Shown: positions 14,776-39,766 of the stretch, one piece after another
How the letters are laid out: the number at the start of each line of letters is the position of its first letter
Numbering within the stretch: the first letter of the stretch is position 1
Origin: Salinicola socius
Lineage (GTDB): Bacteria > Pseudomonadota > Gammaproteobacteria > Pseudomonadales > Halomonadaceae
Direction of reading: 5' to 3'
Length of the DNA stretch: 64,000 nt
Assembly: GCF_001937195.1 (NCBI RefSeq)
Contig: NZ_MSDO01000005.1
Span: 124,001 to 188,000 of the forward strand
The notes under the pieces: model-generated
Told to the model about the DNA's origin: nothing
What the model saw: only the letters and a program-made list of their open reading frames with translations
The model's database searches: none
Position numbers and translations under genes: made by a program

Positions 14776-15458
14776 AAAAACGTTTGATGTTGCGTTGCTA
14801 CGGCTTGTTGGGATTGGGAATCGGCTTGTGTCTGGGAATGTCTTCGGCGGCGCAGGCGCATCCGCATGGCTGGGTCGACATGAGCGTCGAGGGGATCTTC
14901 GACGATCAGGGAAGCCTGACCGGGTTACGCCAGCGCTGGCGCATGGATCCGTTCTATAGCCAGGTAGTGATGGAGGAGATGGCGAACGTCGACGACGGTA
15001 CCAGCATGGCGCAACGCCTCGATGCGCTGGGCGTCGAGATTCGCAACAATCTCGCCACCCAGGACAATCTGACCCACATTGCGCTCGACGGACAGCCCGT
15101 GGCGCAGGGTGATGTCACCGATACCAATACCGACTATCGCGATGACCGGCTGATCTTCGAGTTCGTGCTGCCGCTGGCGGCACCGCAGGCGTTGGCCGGC
15201 CACACCCTGAGTTACCGGATCTTCGATCCCACCTATTACATCGAGATGGTTCACGAGGCCACTGAAGATGGTTCCCAGCCGCGGCCGGAGGCGTTGACGC
15301 TCGATCATCCGCCCGCCGGCTGCACCACCCATATCGCCAAGCCGAAACCGGATCCCCAGAAGGTGATGGAAGCGTCGATGCTGGACAAGAGCGAGTCGGG
15401 CGAACCGAACCTGGGTCGCTTCTTCGCCGAAACCGGAGAGATCACGTGCCCGGCCTGA
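14772..15458 (+). CDS. DUF1007 periplasmic protein, partner of NicO-type exporter
   Basis: A 228-residue secreted protein. It has a KKR n-region and hydrophobic core, with likely cleavage after AQA near residue 29, which leaves a mature N-terminus beginning HPHGWVDM. That His-x-His start is typical of DUF1007 proteins, which are encoded next to NicO/RcnA-type nickel/cobalt transporters and are presumed metal-handling factors. The start is a TTG at 14772 overlapping the upstream TGA. Its 3' end overlaps the GTG start of the transporter by 13 nt, so the four genes form one coupled operon. Confidence 0.82.
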   Translation: MKKRLMLRCYGLLGLGIGLCLGMSSAAQAHPHGWVDMSVEGIFDDQGSLTGLRQRWRMDPFYSQVVMEEMANVDDGTSMAQRLDALGVEIRNNLATQDNLTHIALDGQPVAQGDVTDTNTDYRDDRLIFEFVLPLAAPQALAGHTLSYRIFDPTYYIEMVHEATEDGSQPRPEALTLDHPPAGCTTHIAKPKPDPQKVMEASMLDKSESGEPNLGRFFAETGEITCPA

Positions 15459-16606
15459 ACGCGACGCTGAGATTTCTGATCCCGCTGGCACTGCTGGGCG
15501 CGATCGCCGCCGCGGGATATTCGCTGGGCTGGTGGCAACACGTTGCGGTGCAGATCGTCTACTGGCAGGGCAAGTTCTACCACGCCCTGATCGAAGCGGT
15601 CACCGCGCTGAATCGCGCACCGAGCGCCACGACCTGGAGCGTTCTGCTCGGGGTGAGCTTCGGCTACGGCGTCTTTCACGCGGCGGGGCCGGGGCATGGC
15701 AAGGTGGTGTTGAGTACCTATCTGGCGTCTCAGGGCGGAGCCTGGCGGCGTGCGCTGGGCCTCTCCGTGCTGGCGGCCTTGCTGCAGGGCGTGATGGCGA
15801 TCGCGATCATCGGCGTGCTGGTGTTCGGTCTGGGGTGGCTGACCCGACAGGCGATGGGCAGTATCGATCAGGCGGAGTTGGCGAGTTTCGTGATCGTCGC
15901 GCTGGTGGGGTTGTGGCTCTGCGTGCGCTCGCTACGGCGACTGTGGCGCGCCCGTCATGCTGTCGCAGCTCACGCGCCGACAGCCACCGAACCCCGCGTG
16001 ACGCCGAACTTCTCGTCGGTGTCGGCGTGGTCCGCAGCGCCGACACCGAGCCAGGGCGCGCTGGATGGAGCGTCGCCCGCGCAGCGACACTCTCCCGGCG
16101 CCTCTCCCGGTGCACACTGCGGCTGCGGCCATGATCATCATATCGACCCGCGTGAGGTCGGTGACTGGCGGGTCGCGCTGTTGACGGTGCTGTCGATCGG
16201 TATTCGCCCCTGTAGTGGCGCGGTGCTGCTGCTGGGGGCGGCGGCGCTGCTCGATCAGTTCGGCAAAGGCGTCGTCGCGGTGCTGGCGATGTCGCTGGGA
16301 ACGGCGCTGACCGTCTCCTCGCTGGCACTGCTCAGCGTGCTGGCGCGGGACTGGGTCCAGCGCCATCTCAAGCCCGCCACGGGCGGCGGACAGTGGCAGG
16401 CGTGGGTCGGGCTCGCGGGTGGGGCGCTGATACTGATGTTGGGGCTATCGTTGACGCTGGCCCAGTGGCAGCGTGGCCCGGCCGCCGCGCCACCCATGCT
16501 CGGTGCACCTGCCGCGCAGCAGGCGCAATCCCCGCGTGGACCGTTCGGATCCGTGCCCATCCAATCGGCCACGTCCAAACCGACGCGAGGCCGAGAGATT
16601 CCCTAG
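15446..16606 (+). CDS. NicO/RcnA-family nickel/cobalt exporter
   Basis: A 386-residue inner-membrane protein of the NicO family, with about six or more membrane helices. Key sites are HAAGPGHGK near residue 77, a cytosolic or periplasmic loop (about 170-235) that is Ala/Ser/Pro-rich and ends in a Cys/His cluster CGCGHDHH near 228, and GIRPCSG near 251. These are the metal-path motifs of RcnA-like exporters. The C-terminal tail after residue 355 is Pro/Gln-rich. GTG start overlapping the DUF1007 gene. The TAG stop lies in the CTAG that bounds the repeat element at 16603. Metal specificity cannot be read from sequence. Confidence 0.87.
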   Translation: MPGLNATLRFLIPLALLGAIAAAGYSLGWWQHVAVQIVYWQGKFYHALIEAVTALNRAPSATTWSVLLGVSFGYGVFHAAGPGHGKVVLSTYLASQGGAWRRALGLSVLAALLQGVMAIAIIGVLVFGLGWLTRQAMGSIDQAELASFVIVALVGLWLCVRSLRRLWRARHAVAAHAPTATEPRVTPNFSSVSAWSAAPTPSQGALDGASPAQRHSPGASPGAHCGCGHDHHIDPREVGDWRVALLTVLSIGIRPCSGAVLLLGAAALLDQFGKGVVAVLAMSLGTALTVSSLALLSVLARDWVQRHLKPATGGGQWQAWVGLAGGALILMLGLSLTLAQWQRGPAAAPPMLGAPAAQQAQSPRGPFGSVPIQSATSKPTRGREIP

Positions 16607-16749
16607 GTTCCGTCTGAAAAATCGACGAGCGACGGCCAGACCGGGGCCCGTAGCCAAGGCAAAAATCGATGAAGGCGGACCGGGCTGGCGTACCAGCCGA
16701 TTTTCAACACCGTATGGGCGAGCGCAGGCAGTTTTCAGCCGGTGCCTAG
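16603..16749. mobile_element. MITE-like element, family A, copy 1 (CTAG-bounded)
   Basis: A 139-bp non-coding element (16607-16745) flanked on both sides by CTAG. Just inside are imperfect terminal inverted repeats: GTTCCGTCTGAAAA on the left and the complement of GCACCGGCTGAAAA on the right. The interior matches copy 2 at 39576-39766 nearly base for base. The left CTAG contains the rcnA-like stop and the right CTAG contains the stop of the opposing HIT gene. The 4-bp duplication fits the YTAR target preference of the IS5 subgroup, but no transposase is present here. Confidence 0.8.
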
Positions 16750-17171
16750 CGTACGACGCCGGCGTCGCTCGCCAATCGAGCGATCTCCTCGCGGCGCTGC
16801 TCGAGCGCTTCAGCGTCATAGGTCTCCGCGCTGCCCTGGCCCCAGACCGGCCCGGGCCAGGCGGCATCATCCTGGAAGCGCACGATCAGGTGAACATGGA
16901 GCTGCGGCACCTGATTGCCGAGCGTGGCGATGTTCAGCTTGTCGCCGCCGTAGTGGCGCATCATCGCCTGCCCCAGTTGGCTCGCTTCCTGCCATAGCGT
17001 CGCCTGTTCGTCGGTGCCAAGTTCATAGACTTCGACGACCCGCTCGCGCTGCGGAATCAGAATCACCCAGGGGTAGCGGGCATCCCGACTCAGGCGGACC
17101 TGGCACAACGCTAGATCGATGATGTGGACGCTGTCCTGCTGCAGGCGCGAGTCGAGGGTGAAGTTGGGCAT
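16746..17171 (-). CDS. HIT-domain protein (Gln-x-His-x-His variant)
   Basis: A 141-residue HIT-family nucleotide hydrolase/transferase-like protein. The ATG at 17171 has a GGAGG box. The C-terminal HIT motif reads QLHVHLIVR, so against the canonical H-x-H-x-H-x-x the first His is Gln while the nucleophilic middle His and the last His remain. An upstream RYPWVILIPQR block forms the base-binding strand. Substrate unknown; relatives with this variant are common in gammaproteobacteria. The stop codon is provided by the right CTAG of the adjacent MITE-like element. Confidence 0.85.
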   Translation of the reverse strand: MPNFTLDSRLQQDSVHIIDLALCQVRLSRDARYPWVILIPQRERVVEVYELGTDEQATLWQEASQLGQAMMRHYGGDKLNIATLGNQVPQLHVHLIVRFQDDAAWPGPVWGQGSAETYDAEALEQRREEIARLASDAGVVR

Positions 17172-38130: not shown

Positions 38131-39579
38131 ATGCGGCGATGGCTAGGTCGGAGTTCTCTGTTTGTCGGTGCGTTATCCCTTTCCGTTGTCTCCATCGCTG
38201 TGCAAGCGGCCGGGTTCGACCATGTCGGCCGGCTGGCCGACAAAGGTTTCGTGGTCAGCGCCCAGGCGCAACTGCTCGATAGCGGCGAAGTGCTGGGTGC
38301 CATCAATCCGGCCCAGGCATTGTCGCCAGCTTCGGTCACCAAGCTTTACACCGCTGCCGCCTCGCTGGATCGATGGGGCCCGCAGCATCGCTTTACCACG
38401 CGTTTCGTGTCCACCGGTTCGCTCGATGCCAACGGCGTGCTGCACGGCGATCTGGTGCTCGAAGGCGGCGGAGATCCCGCGCTGACTTCGGAAGAACTCT
38501 GGCGCCTGATCCAGAAGCTGCGGGAGCTCGGCGTTTCCAGCGTCGACGGCCAACTGGTTGTCAGCCAGTGGCGCTTCGGGCCGGTGGCCTGTGCCACCAC
38601 CGATCGCTGCCAGACGCAGACGGAAGGCACCAACGCCTACGCCTCGCTACTCTCTTCCGCCGCGATCAACTACGGCAGCTGGTGCGCTACGGTGATGCCG
38701 GGCGTGGTCGGTCAGCCGGCACGCATTACCAGTTGCGACACGGTGGCGCCGACCATTCGCATCGAGAACGACGTGACCACGGTGGCGGCAGGGGGTTCGG
38801 CCAGTCTCGATGCCAAGCGGATCACCGATAGTCAGGGCGATACGCTGCGCGTCAGCGGTCAGATCCCCGCCGGCAGCTATCCGCGTCCGGTCTACAAGGC
38901 GAGCTCGGACCCTGCCGATCAGACTGGCCAGACGCTGCTGTCGTTGCTGCGTCAGGCTGGCATTCCGATCAGCGGTGGCTACGCGATCAGTCGTCAGGCG
39001 CCGCCGCCTTCTGCGCAGTCGCTGGCGGCGGTGGAGGGCAAGCCGCTGCAGGAGCTGCTGCTGCGCACGCTCAACTACTCCAACAATTTCATGGCCGATA
39101 CGCTGGCGCTGGATCTGACCGCCGGCACCCAGCAGAATCTGCCGGATGCCGGCCGGGCGCTGGAGCGCTTCGCCGCCGGTCTGCCAGGGCATGGCGCGGT
39201 CACGCTGCGCAGCGGCAGTGGCCTGACCCCGGAAAACCGCGTTTCCGCGCAAAGCGTCAATGCGCTGCTCGGTGCCATGTATGGACGCGCATCGCTGTTT
39301 CCCACTTTCGTGGCGGGCATGCAGGTTCCCACCAACGGGCCGATGCACTTCATCCGGCGCGGTAGCCAGACGTTCCAGGATCACGTGATGCTCAAGACGG
39401 GTACGCTCAACGAGCCGGTGACCGTGCGGGCCATTGCTGGTTATTTTCGAACCGAGAGTGGTCGCTGGGGCAGTTTTGCGGTACTCGTCAACGGCACCGG
39501 GTCGACGCCGTACCTCTCCTGGCGGGAGACGCTGCCGATGATTTCGGACGATCTGACCGCGATGATCGAACGCCACTAG
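38131..39579 (+). CDS. dacB: D-alanyl-D-alanine carboxypeptidase/endopeptidase PBP4
   Basis: A 482-residue periplasmic class C penicillin-binding protein that trims or cleaves peptidoglycan peptides. It has a signal peptide (basic MRRWLGRSSL, hydrophobic core, cleavage near VQA-AG, residue 28). Active-site motifs are SVTK (Ser-x-x-Lys, near residue 68, in SPASVTKLYTA), YSNN (Ser-x-Asn, near 313) and KTG (near 423, in MLKTGTL). The inserted domain between the first two motifs is the PBP4 type. Start ATG at 38131 behind TTGGAGCG. Its TAG stop is inside the left CTAG of the second family A element. Confidence 0.93.
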   Translation: MRRWLGRSSLFVGALSLSVVSIAVQAAGFDHVGRLADKGFVVSAQAQLLDSGEVLGAINPAQALSPASVTKLYTAAASLDRWGPQHRFTTRFVSTGSLDANGVLHGDLVLEGGGDPALTSEELWRLIQKLRELGVSSVDGQLVVSQWRFGPVACATTDRCQTQTEGTNAYASLLSSAAINYGSWCATVMPGVVGQPARITSCDTVAPTIRIENDVTTVAAGGSASLDAKRITDSQGDTLRVSGQIPAGSYPRPVYKASSDPADQTGQTLLSLLRQAGIPISGGYAISRQAPPPSAQSLAAVEGKPLQELLLRTLNYSNNFMADTLALDLTAGTQQNLPDAGRALERFAAGLPGHGAVTLRSGSGLTPENRVSAQSVNALLGAMYGRASLFPTFVAGMQVPTNGPMHFIRRGSQTFQDHVMLKTGTLNEPVTVRAIAGYFRTESGRWGSFAVLVNGTGSTPYLSWRETLPMISDDLTAMIERH

Positions 39580-39766
39580 GCGCTGTCTGAAAAGTCGACG
39601 AGCGACGGCAAGACCGGGGCGCGTAGCCAAGGCAAGAATCGATGAAGACGGACCGGGCTGGCGTACCCGTTTACGCGGTGTCAATGAGCATCTTGACCGG
39701 GCTGGCGCACCAGCCGATTTTTAACGCCGTATGGGCGAGCGCAGGCAGTTTTCAGACAGTGCCTAG
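39576..39766. mobile_element. MITE-like element, family A, copy 2 (CTAG-bounded, internal duplication)
   Basis: A 183-bp element (39580-39762) between two CTAG sites. The terminal inverted repeats GCGCTGTCTGAAAA and complement of GCACTGTCTGAAAA differ by one base. It aligns with copy 1 throughout, except for a 44-bp internal insertion flanked by two copies of GACCGGGCTGGCG (39651 and 39695), exactly accounting for the length difference. Left CTAG holds the dacB stop. Non-coding. Confidence 0.8.

Follow-up and report, generated by a model that had tools for sequence, protein, structure and literature searches.

Two convergent genes of Salinicola socius, encoding a NicO-family exporter and a HIT-family protein, end at the two borders of a single MITE, and the TAG stop codon of each is composed of the target TA and the outermost base of the element. 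Very probably this is a non-autonomous MITE of IS5/IS427 type which re-makes the stop codons that it enters by way of its TA duplication. The TA is duplicated, the stop codon is regenerated, the HIT stop is at its ancestral position, full-length IS with such ends exist in related genomes and the copies are enriched at stop codons relative to available non-coding sites. This enrichment would mainly reflect the choice of target, together with the loss through selection of insertions into coding or control sequences.

The element and its flanking genes

The window, i.e. the whole stretch of 64,000 nt that was analysed, harbours the MITE at positions 16606 to 16746 (+ strand, 141 nt, with a G at each outer end when read inward). 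The left terminal repeat GGTTCCGTCTGAAAA (16606 to 16620, + strand), of the same type as the ends of a full-length IS at locus L417, and the right terminal repeat GGCACCGGCTGAAAA (16732 to 16746, − strand) are imperfect inverted repeats that match in 12 of 15 positions. Between them is a hairpin core (16621 to 16731, + strand) common to MITEs with different ends. The 2-bp target duplication, to which no strand is assigned, consists of a left TA at 16604 to 16605 and a right TA at 16747 to 16748. Being short, without coding capacity, bounded by terminal inverted repeats and present in multiple dispersed copies, the element is a MITE, as the first-pass annotation had suspected.

The NicO gene (15446 to 16606, + strand; Pfam NicO, E = 9.6e-31) ends in TAG at 16604 to 16606, that is in the target TA followed by the first base, G, of the element. 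The HIT gene (16746 to 17171, − strand; Pfam HIT, E = 1.6e-15), for which we chose the ATG at 17171 as the start, ends in a TAG that reads CTA at 16746 to 16748 on the forward strand and likewise combines the target TA with the terminal base of the element; the position of this stop is ancestral. The best eight named matches to the HIT protein were all from Salinicola and were 74–85% identical. CTAG flanks the MITE on both sides (16603 to 16606 and 16746 to 16749), and the open reading frame coordinates agree with the earlier description, in which the left TAG ended the NicO gene (+) and the right TAG the HIT gene (−). It also holds that the insertion took place in a CTAG containing a stop codon and that the two genes now each have a stop of their own.

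Copies of the element and the duplicated target

The element had 21 matches in the S. socius genome. With E ≤ 0.001 and no more than 14 candidates scored in each genome, 28 of the 58 genomes searched, S. socius among them, contained a match. With up to two mismatches allowed, the end motif matched 86 times in S. socius versus 34 times for a reversed control pattern; this is a dispersed repeat and not an effect of chance. Paired copies in this genome numbered 41, one of which (C2:172669) is probably spurious and has its right end in common with C2:172772. Lengths of 48, 141 and 185 nt between the TAs were recurrent, and a second copy in the window (39577 to 39765, + strand), with 185 nt between the TAs, occupies the stop codon with which a gene for a D-Ala-D-Ala carboxypeptidase (S13) ends. 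The minimal copies of S. socius (47–48 nt; e.g. C80:166068 and C76:24865) consisted of little beyond the two ends and a GAGCG stretch. In longer copies the interior was bounded by GCGAGCG direct repeats, and interiors may have been lost or gained by recombination at these repeats.

Two types of ends were seen, one with G at both outer ends (G/G) and one with A at one end and C at the other (A/C). In the A/C subfamily of S. socius the A end faced the gene, giving TAA, in all four stop-site cases, and one gene ended 4 nt ahead of a C end. Within a stop, a C end would turn the codon into TAC and cause read-through, a case that the count of stops would hardly register.

TA was present at both ends in 49 of 67 pairs from two Salinicola genomes, S. 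socius and G005. The first-pass annotation had assumed a 4-bp duplication of CTAG. A 4-bp repeat was present in 23 of the 49 TA-flanked pairs, all of the G/G type, and absent from the remaining 26; thus, the duplicated target is TA and not CTAG, and this part of the earlier interpretation has to be given up. Copies in CTAA, TTAG and CTAC targets and those of the A/C-ended subfamily had only the TA in common. The base 5′ of the left TA was C or T in all 49 pairs, and the base 3′ of the right TA was G or A in 46. The duplication is TA, the target is mostly YTAR, and the left TAG owes its final G to the element, which starts with this base. For one copy the duplication was matched by an empty site in two relatives: at C89:104127 the S. 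socius sequence aac[TA]..[TA]gatcg corresponded to aacTAGatc in both of them.

The NicO-HIT junction in related species

When the flanks of the window element are joined at one TA, the resulting ATTCC-CTAG-CGTACG ends both frames, as reconstructed earlier, and the first-pass annotation had taken this to mean that NicO and HIT once overlapped in one CTAG and received a stop each through the insertion. The orthologous junctions lend this no support, with NicO and HIT sharing one stop in 0 of 17 same-genus relatives, the NicO ends of which were assigned by eye on the basis of the C-terminal sequences. In G003 and G017, the two nearest species, the HIT stop is a TAG at the same codon, and NicO ends in a TGA about 50 bp before the HIT stop. 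Since 18 residues follow the conserved GPFG of NicO in S. socius versus 4 in G003 and G017, the use of the CTAG by NicO is derived. As judged from these alignments, the HIT stop is at its ancestral codon and NicO has lost its own upstream stop; the element would have entered the HIT stop codon, and NicO would end at the CTAG because its own stop was lost. That loss may have preceded or followed the insertion, and a CTAG common to both genes would at most have been a transient stage.

The junction was occupied in other species as well. In G013 (L033) it contained a second-family MITE (see below) with the same core and other ends, the target duplication of which contains the NicO TGA, and in G005 (L031) a second-family MITE with one decayed end. 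The empty site CCTGAGTTCA was found in G004 and G015. A second case of a double stop, L273 in G012 (1500–1640), lends the former overlap of two genes some credit: here a second-family MITE has the TAA of an AbiEii-type gene on one side and the TAG of an ABC-transporter gene on the other, and the empty site predicted from the G012 sequence alone is CTAAG with overlapping convergent stops. For NicO and HIT, however, the ancestral NicO end was upstream, no relative shares a stop, and a stop-less frame is by reasoning expected to run into any particular CTAG in register in about a third of cases, and we regard a former overlap of the pair in one CTAG as rather doubtful. Another candidate double stop, at L378, was not confirmed and is not counted; there, a 105-aa minus-strand frame also ended in the CTAG, and the downstream sequence differed in relatives.

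A second family and the distribution of the core

The second family of MITEs has the ends GAGGGTGTTTACAAA and a TNA duplication, mostly in CTNAG, and its interior is that of the first family. It was represented by 59 distinct pairs (22 in G005 and 37 in other genomes). At E ≤ 0.001 the core was detected in 43 of 61 genomes of the Halomonadaceae, representing 18 of the 24 genera covered. A sample of 274 genomes from the whole class Gammaproteobacteria gave matches in 73 (64 of 222 genera), the weaker of which possibly include chance ones; at E < 1e-10 it was present in 32 of the 274, S. socius included, by our own count. Outside the Halomonadaceae the core carried other ends, e.g. CTAGCAGGCTGTTGAAAA, which may be IS1182-like, or TCCTACTGTGTCACAAAG. 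At L372–L380, one core occurred with several sets of terminal repeats across the Gammaproteobacteria, as if ends had been exchanged around it. Copies with CTAG targets and GCAGGCTGTTGAAAA ends also occurred.

Three loci with an in-frame CTAG at the boundary, chosen by eye from nine class-wide core loci, were examined, and all three ended real genes (inositol monophosphatase, TsaD and cytochrome c). At the codon where the cytochrome c gene ends, one same-genus relative had an empty CTAG and the other TAA. It is quite conceivable, if slightly short of probable, that the core rides on several sets of ends with TA, TNA and CTAG targets, that these combinations arrived convergently at stop codons as safe places to reside, and that the target rule which provides the IS transposase with its own stop lets host and element swap stops with both proteins unchanged.

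Occurrence at stop codons

Among the copies with matching duplications, 13 of 29 first-family copies in S. socius and 8 of 20 in G005 were located at a host stop. For the second family, the matching TNA coincided exactly with a host TGA or TAA stop, in G005 in 13 of 17 copies and elsewhere in 12 of 29. Not one of the 95 copies in these four sets was inside a called gene, the calls being those of our own codon-usage script, and in three of the four sets more than half of the copies were not at stops. Pairs without matching duplications had been left out (12/41 in S. socius, 6/26 in G005, 5/22 for the second family in G005 and 8/37 in other genomes); with all pairs counted, those at stops amounted to 18/41, 8/26, 13/22 and 13/37, respectively.

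Stops were compared with free non-coding sites of the same sequence, the background being the unoccupied non-coding sites in 284 kb of S. socius and 293 kb of G005. The Mantel-Haenszel odds ratio was 5.4 (p = 5e-8, six strata), and 5.0 under stricter gene calling. Left out of this combined test were 8 of the 66 copies from S. socius and G005, 4 of them at stops, in which the empty site was not CTAG, CTAA, CTCAG or CTAAG, together with the second-family pairs of other genomes, for which there was no background. In the first-family strata, p was 0.04 for CTAG and 0.18 for CTAA in S. socius, and 0.001 for CTAG and 1.0 for CTAA (0/6 at stops) in G005; in the second-family strata it was 0.005 and 0.005. 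With the comparison confined to sites no more than 100 bp from gene ends, an excess at the exact stop stood out in S. socius alone, with 13:2 vs 29:50 (p = 4e-4). At the same distance p was 0.06 for the first and 0.06 for the second family in G005, and no excess was found in other genomes (12/22, with the background from another species).

For 14 S. socius genes with a stop-site copy, a comparison with orthologues in G003 and G017 was also made. The stop was at the same codon in 27 of the 28 comparisons. In 16 of the 28 the final 1 to 13 nt were not covered by the alignment, and for C84:41317 in G017 the alignment was weaker and may be with a paralogue. In the exception, the G003 orthologue for C1:324934, the stop came 20 codons later. 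In 25 of the 28 no paired element was present within 260 nt of the orthologous stop, where a few weak single matches were seen. These 25 element-free orthologues had YTAR at the stop in 12 cases, another TAG or TAA context in 4 and TGA in 9, so in the last group the stop has changed in one lineage or the other. The hisH copy was present in both relatives and is therefore an older insertion. For the second window copy (39577 to 39765) a remnant of about 23 bp was found in G003, and G017 had TGA and no paired element. All 20 carrier proteins scanned, out of 40 carriers, matched Pfam families, and in Mfd, HisH and PurK the alignment extended almost to the final residue.

To some extent the pattern is passive, since 17 of 62 non-coding CTAG sites in S. 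socius are stops anyway; so are 51 of 124 non-coding CTCAG/CTGAG sites in G005. That copies accumulated at stops for no other reason than that stops are a common non-coding target in a GC-rich genome is nevertheless unlikely, the observed share of stops being higher in five of the six strata, with p < 0.05 in four. A transposase complex drawn to stops or gene ends beyond its preference for YTAR or TNA would account for the excess over non-coding sites of the same sequence, and for that at exact stops near gene ends in S. socius. Such active targeting seems improbable to us: surviving insertions have been filtered by selection, 3′ regions can hold terminators and the promoter of the next gene, and outside S. 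socius the excess at exact stops is slight or missing.

The hairpin itself might be kept because it benefits the genes which it ends, with a role in 3′ processing, stability or termination. An alignment of 40 out of 73 copies listed supports a hairpin, since 16 of the 30 predicted pairs had changes on both sides, 10 of them among the 19 of the core, but some of these changes merely mirror how the two families differ, and the counts ignore relatedness. In G005 the core was antisense to the carrier gene in 7 of 8 cases at first-family ends, with 1 unscored, and in 11 of 13 at second-family ends. Its orientation was mixed in S. socius, with 9 sense, 6 antisense and 4 unscored, as it was in other genomes, with 5 sense and 8 antisense. 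An intrinsic terminator was rejected, as the consensus scan of 16500–16850 revealed no terminator-like site. The folding energy of the window element alone was unremarkable (z = −1.1), and no Rfam match in the window exceeded the gathering score. With 25 of 28 orthologous sites lacking a paired element, it is improbable that usefulness of the hairpin keeps it at gene ends.

A likely source of the element

The re-making of stops by a MITE of IS5/IS427 type calls attention to the full-length IS with such ends. An IS with ends CGCTYTGTCTGAAAAA and TA borders was found in two Salinicola species, with lengths of 921 and 922 bp including the TAs. The ends of the A/C subfamily of MITEs match the IS ends at L152/L153, and G-type IS ends were found at L415–L418, with CTAGGTTCTGTCTGAAAAG at L417 close to the left end of the window copy. 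Compared with the IS5/IS427-type ends seen, those of the window copy are close and differ in a few bases. Several of the 30 IS loci fetched had G-type ends, and unrelated repeats were found at some others.

The IS is about 0.9 kb long, and its two ORFs, which are in different frames, match DUF4096 and a DDE transposase in Pfam. DUF4096 and DDE transposase in two frames and a duplication of mostly 2 bp are given for the IS427 group of the IS5 family in the available part of PMC3281130. The likeness consists of the Pfam hits, the two ORFs, the length, the TA duplication and the matching ends; the MITE differs in having no transposase, and S. socius in having no IS of this type. The transposase frame ran to the last IS base, with its stop made of the TA and the first host base, at 30 of 31 right ends (30 loci; the right-end search motif itself contained the TA). 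The stops were TAG in 21 cases and TAA in 9, and one was TTG.

Relatives of orfB were present in 87 of 250 Halomonadaceae genomes (E ≤ 1e-15). S. socius had none at this threshold and no match to DUF4096 at E ≤ 0.001, and its copies may be relics, or the source may have been lost. A resident transposase is not strictly required for descent from IS5/IS427. An IS5/IS427-type IS, found in other Halomonadaceae but not in S. socius, is the likely mover of the MITE, as far as sequence comparison goes. The IS630 family has a preference for CTAG. An IS630/Tc1-mariner origin was rejected, PF13358 (DDE_3) being present in 2 of 18 genomes of the genus, at three loci none of which had paired ends of this kind, and without a match in S. 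socius.

Proposed mechanism and comparison with known elements

The course of events may be depicted as follows. The transposase would act at YTAR and duplicate only the TA. With this TA within a TAG or TAA stop and an element starting with G or A, a stop would be formed again, on either strand. The window copy would have entered the HIT stop codon (C-TA-G), and the same TA and G on the opposite side would now also end the NicO frame, the own stop of which was lost. The transposase of the IS would be without a stop of its own and borrow TA+R from the host, which would be the reason why YTAR is the target.

This suggests how jumping DNA may land in crowded genomes with the genes unbroken, and it would explain how an IS transposase does without its own stop. 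It also provides a testable rule, by which a target that is itself a stop, combined with an element starting with the re-making base, would give near-costless spread in a gene-dense genome. With one core shared among MITEs that differ in their ends, it can also be asked whether the core is selected or merely carried.

In a literature search that mostly did not extend to subscription papers, no description of MITEs or IS in host stop codons that re-make them was found. The search by sequence motif had unrelated papers among the matches listed, and the accessible text of a paper on triplex repeats (PMC4666352) contained no matching terms. The part available of a review (PMC10969869) lists intergenic, 3′ untranslated, regulatory, pseudogene and some intragenic sites and does not name stop codons.

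Related habits are known from other small elements. RUP and the enterobacterial RU/ERIC are small MITEs with terminal repeats and a TA target or duplication (PMC2229807, PMC2759123), but the portions of these papers that could be consulted describe no exact residence in stop codons; they do report one RU-1 insertion that removed a stop and extended a protein. In Coxiella, QMITE2 is found mainly in 3′ untranslated regions and has repeats of 7–11 nt, and QMITE1 overlaps with gene ends, in one case by 3 bp and in others by 26 to 50 bp (PMC5896051, in part). The 3-bp overlap would be a stop codon and may be a single case of the same kind, but that text, as far as available, describes no fixed stop-codon position for QMITE1 or QMITE2. 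Closest on the side of the transposase are ISLxc2 and ISLxx4 of Leifsonia, in which the transposase stop is inside the host CTAG insertion site (PMC2516522, in part). They belong to another family, IS481, duplicate NCTAGN, and are not described in the available part of that work as regenerating a host stop. A transposase stop in CTAG was thus already known; what the present analysis adds is the side of the host, in which a gene obtains its stop codon from the element.
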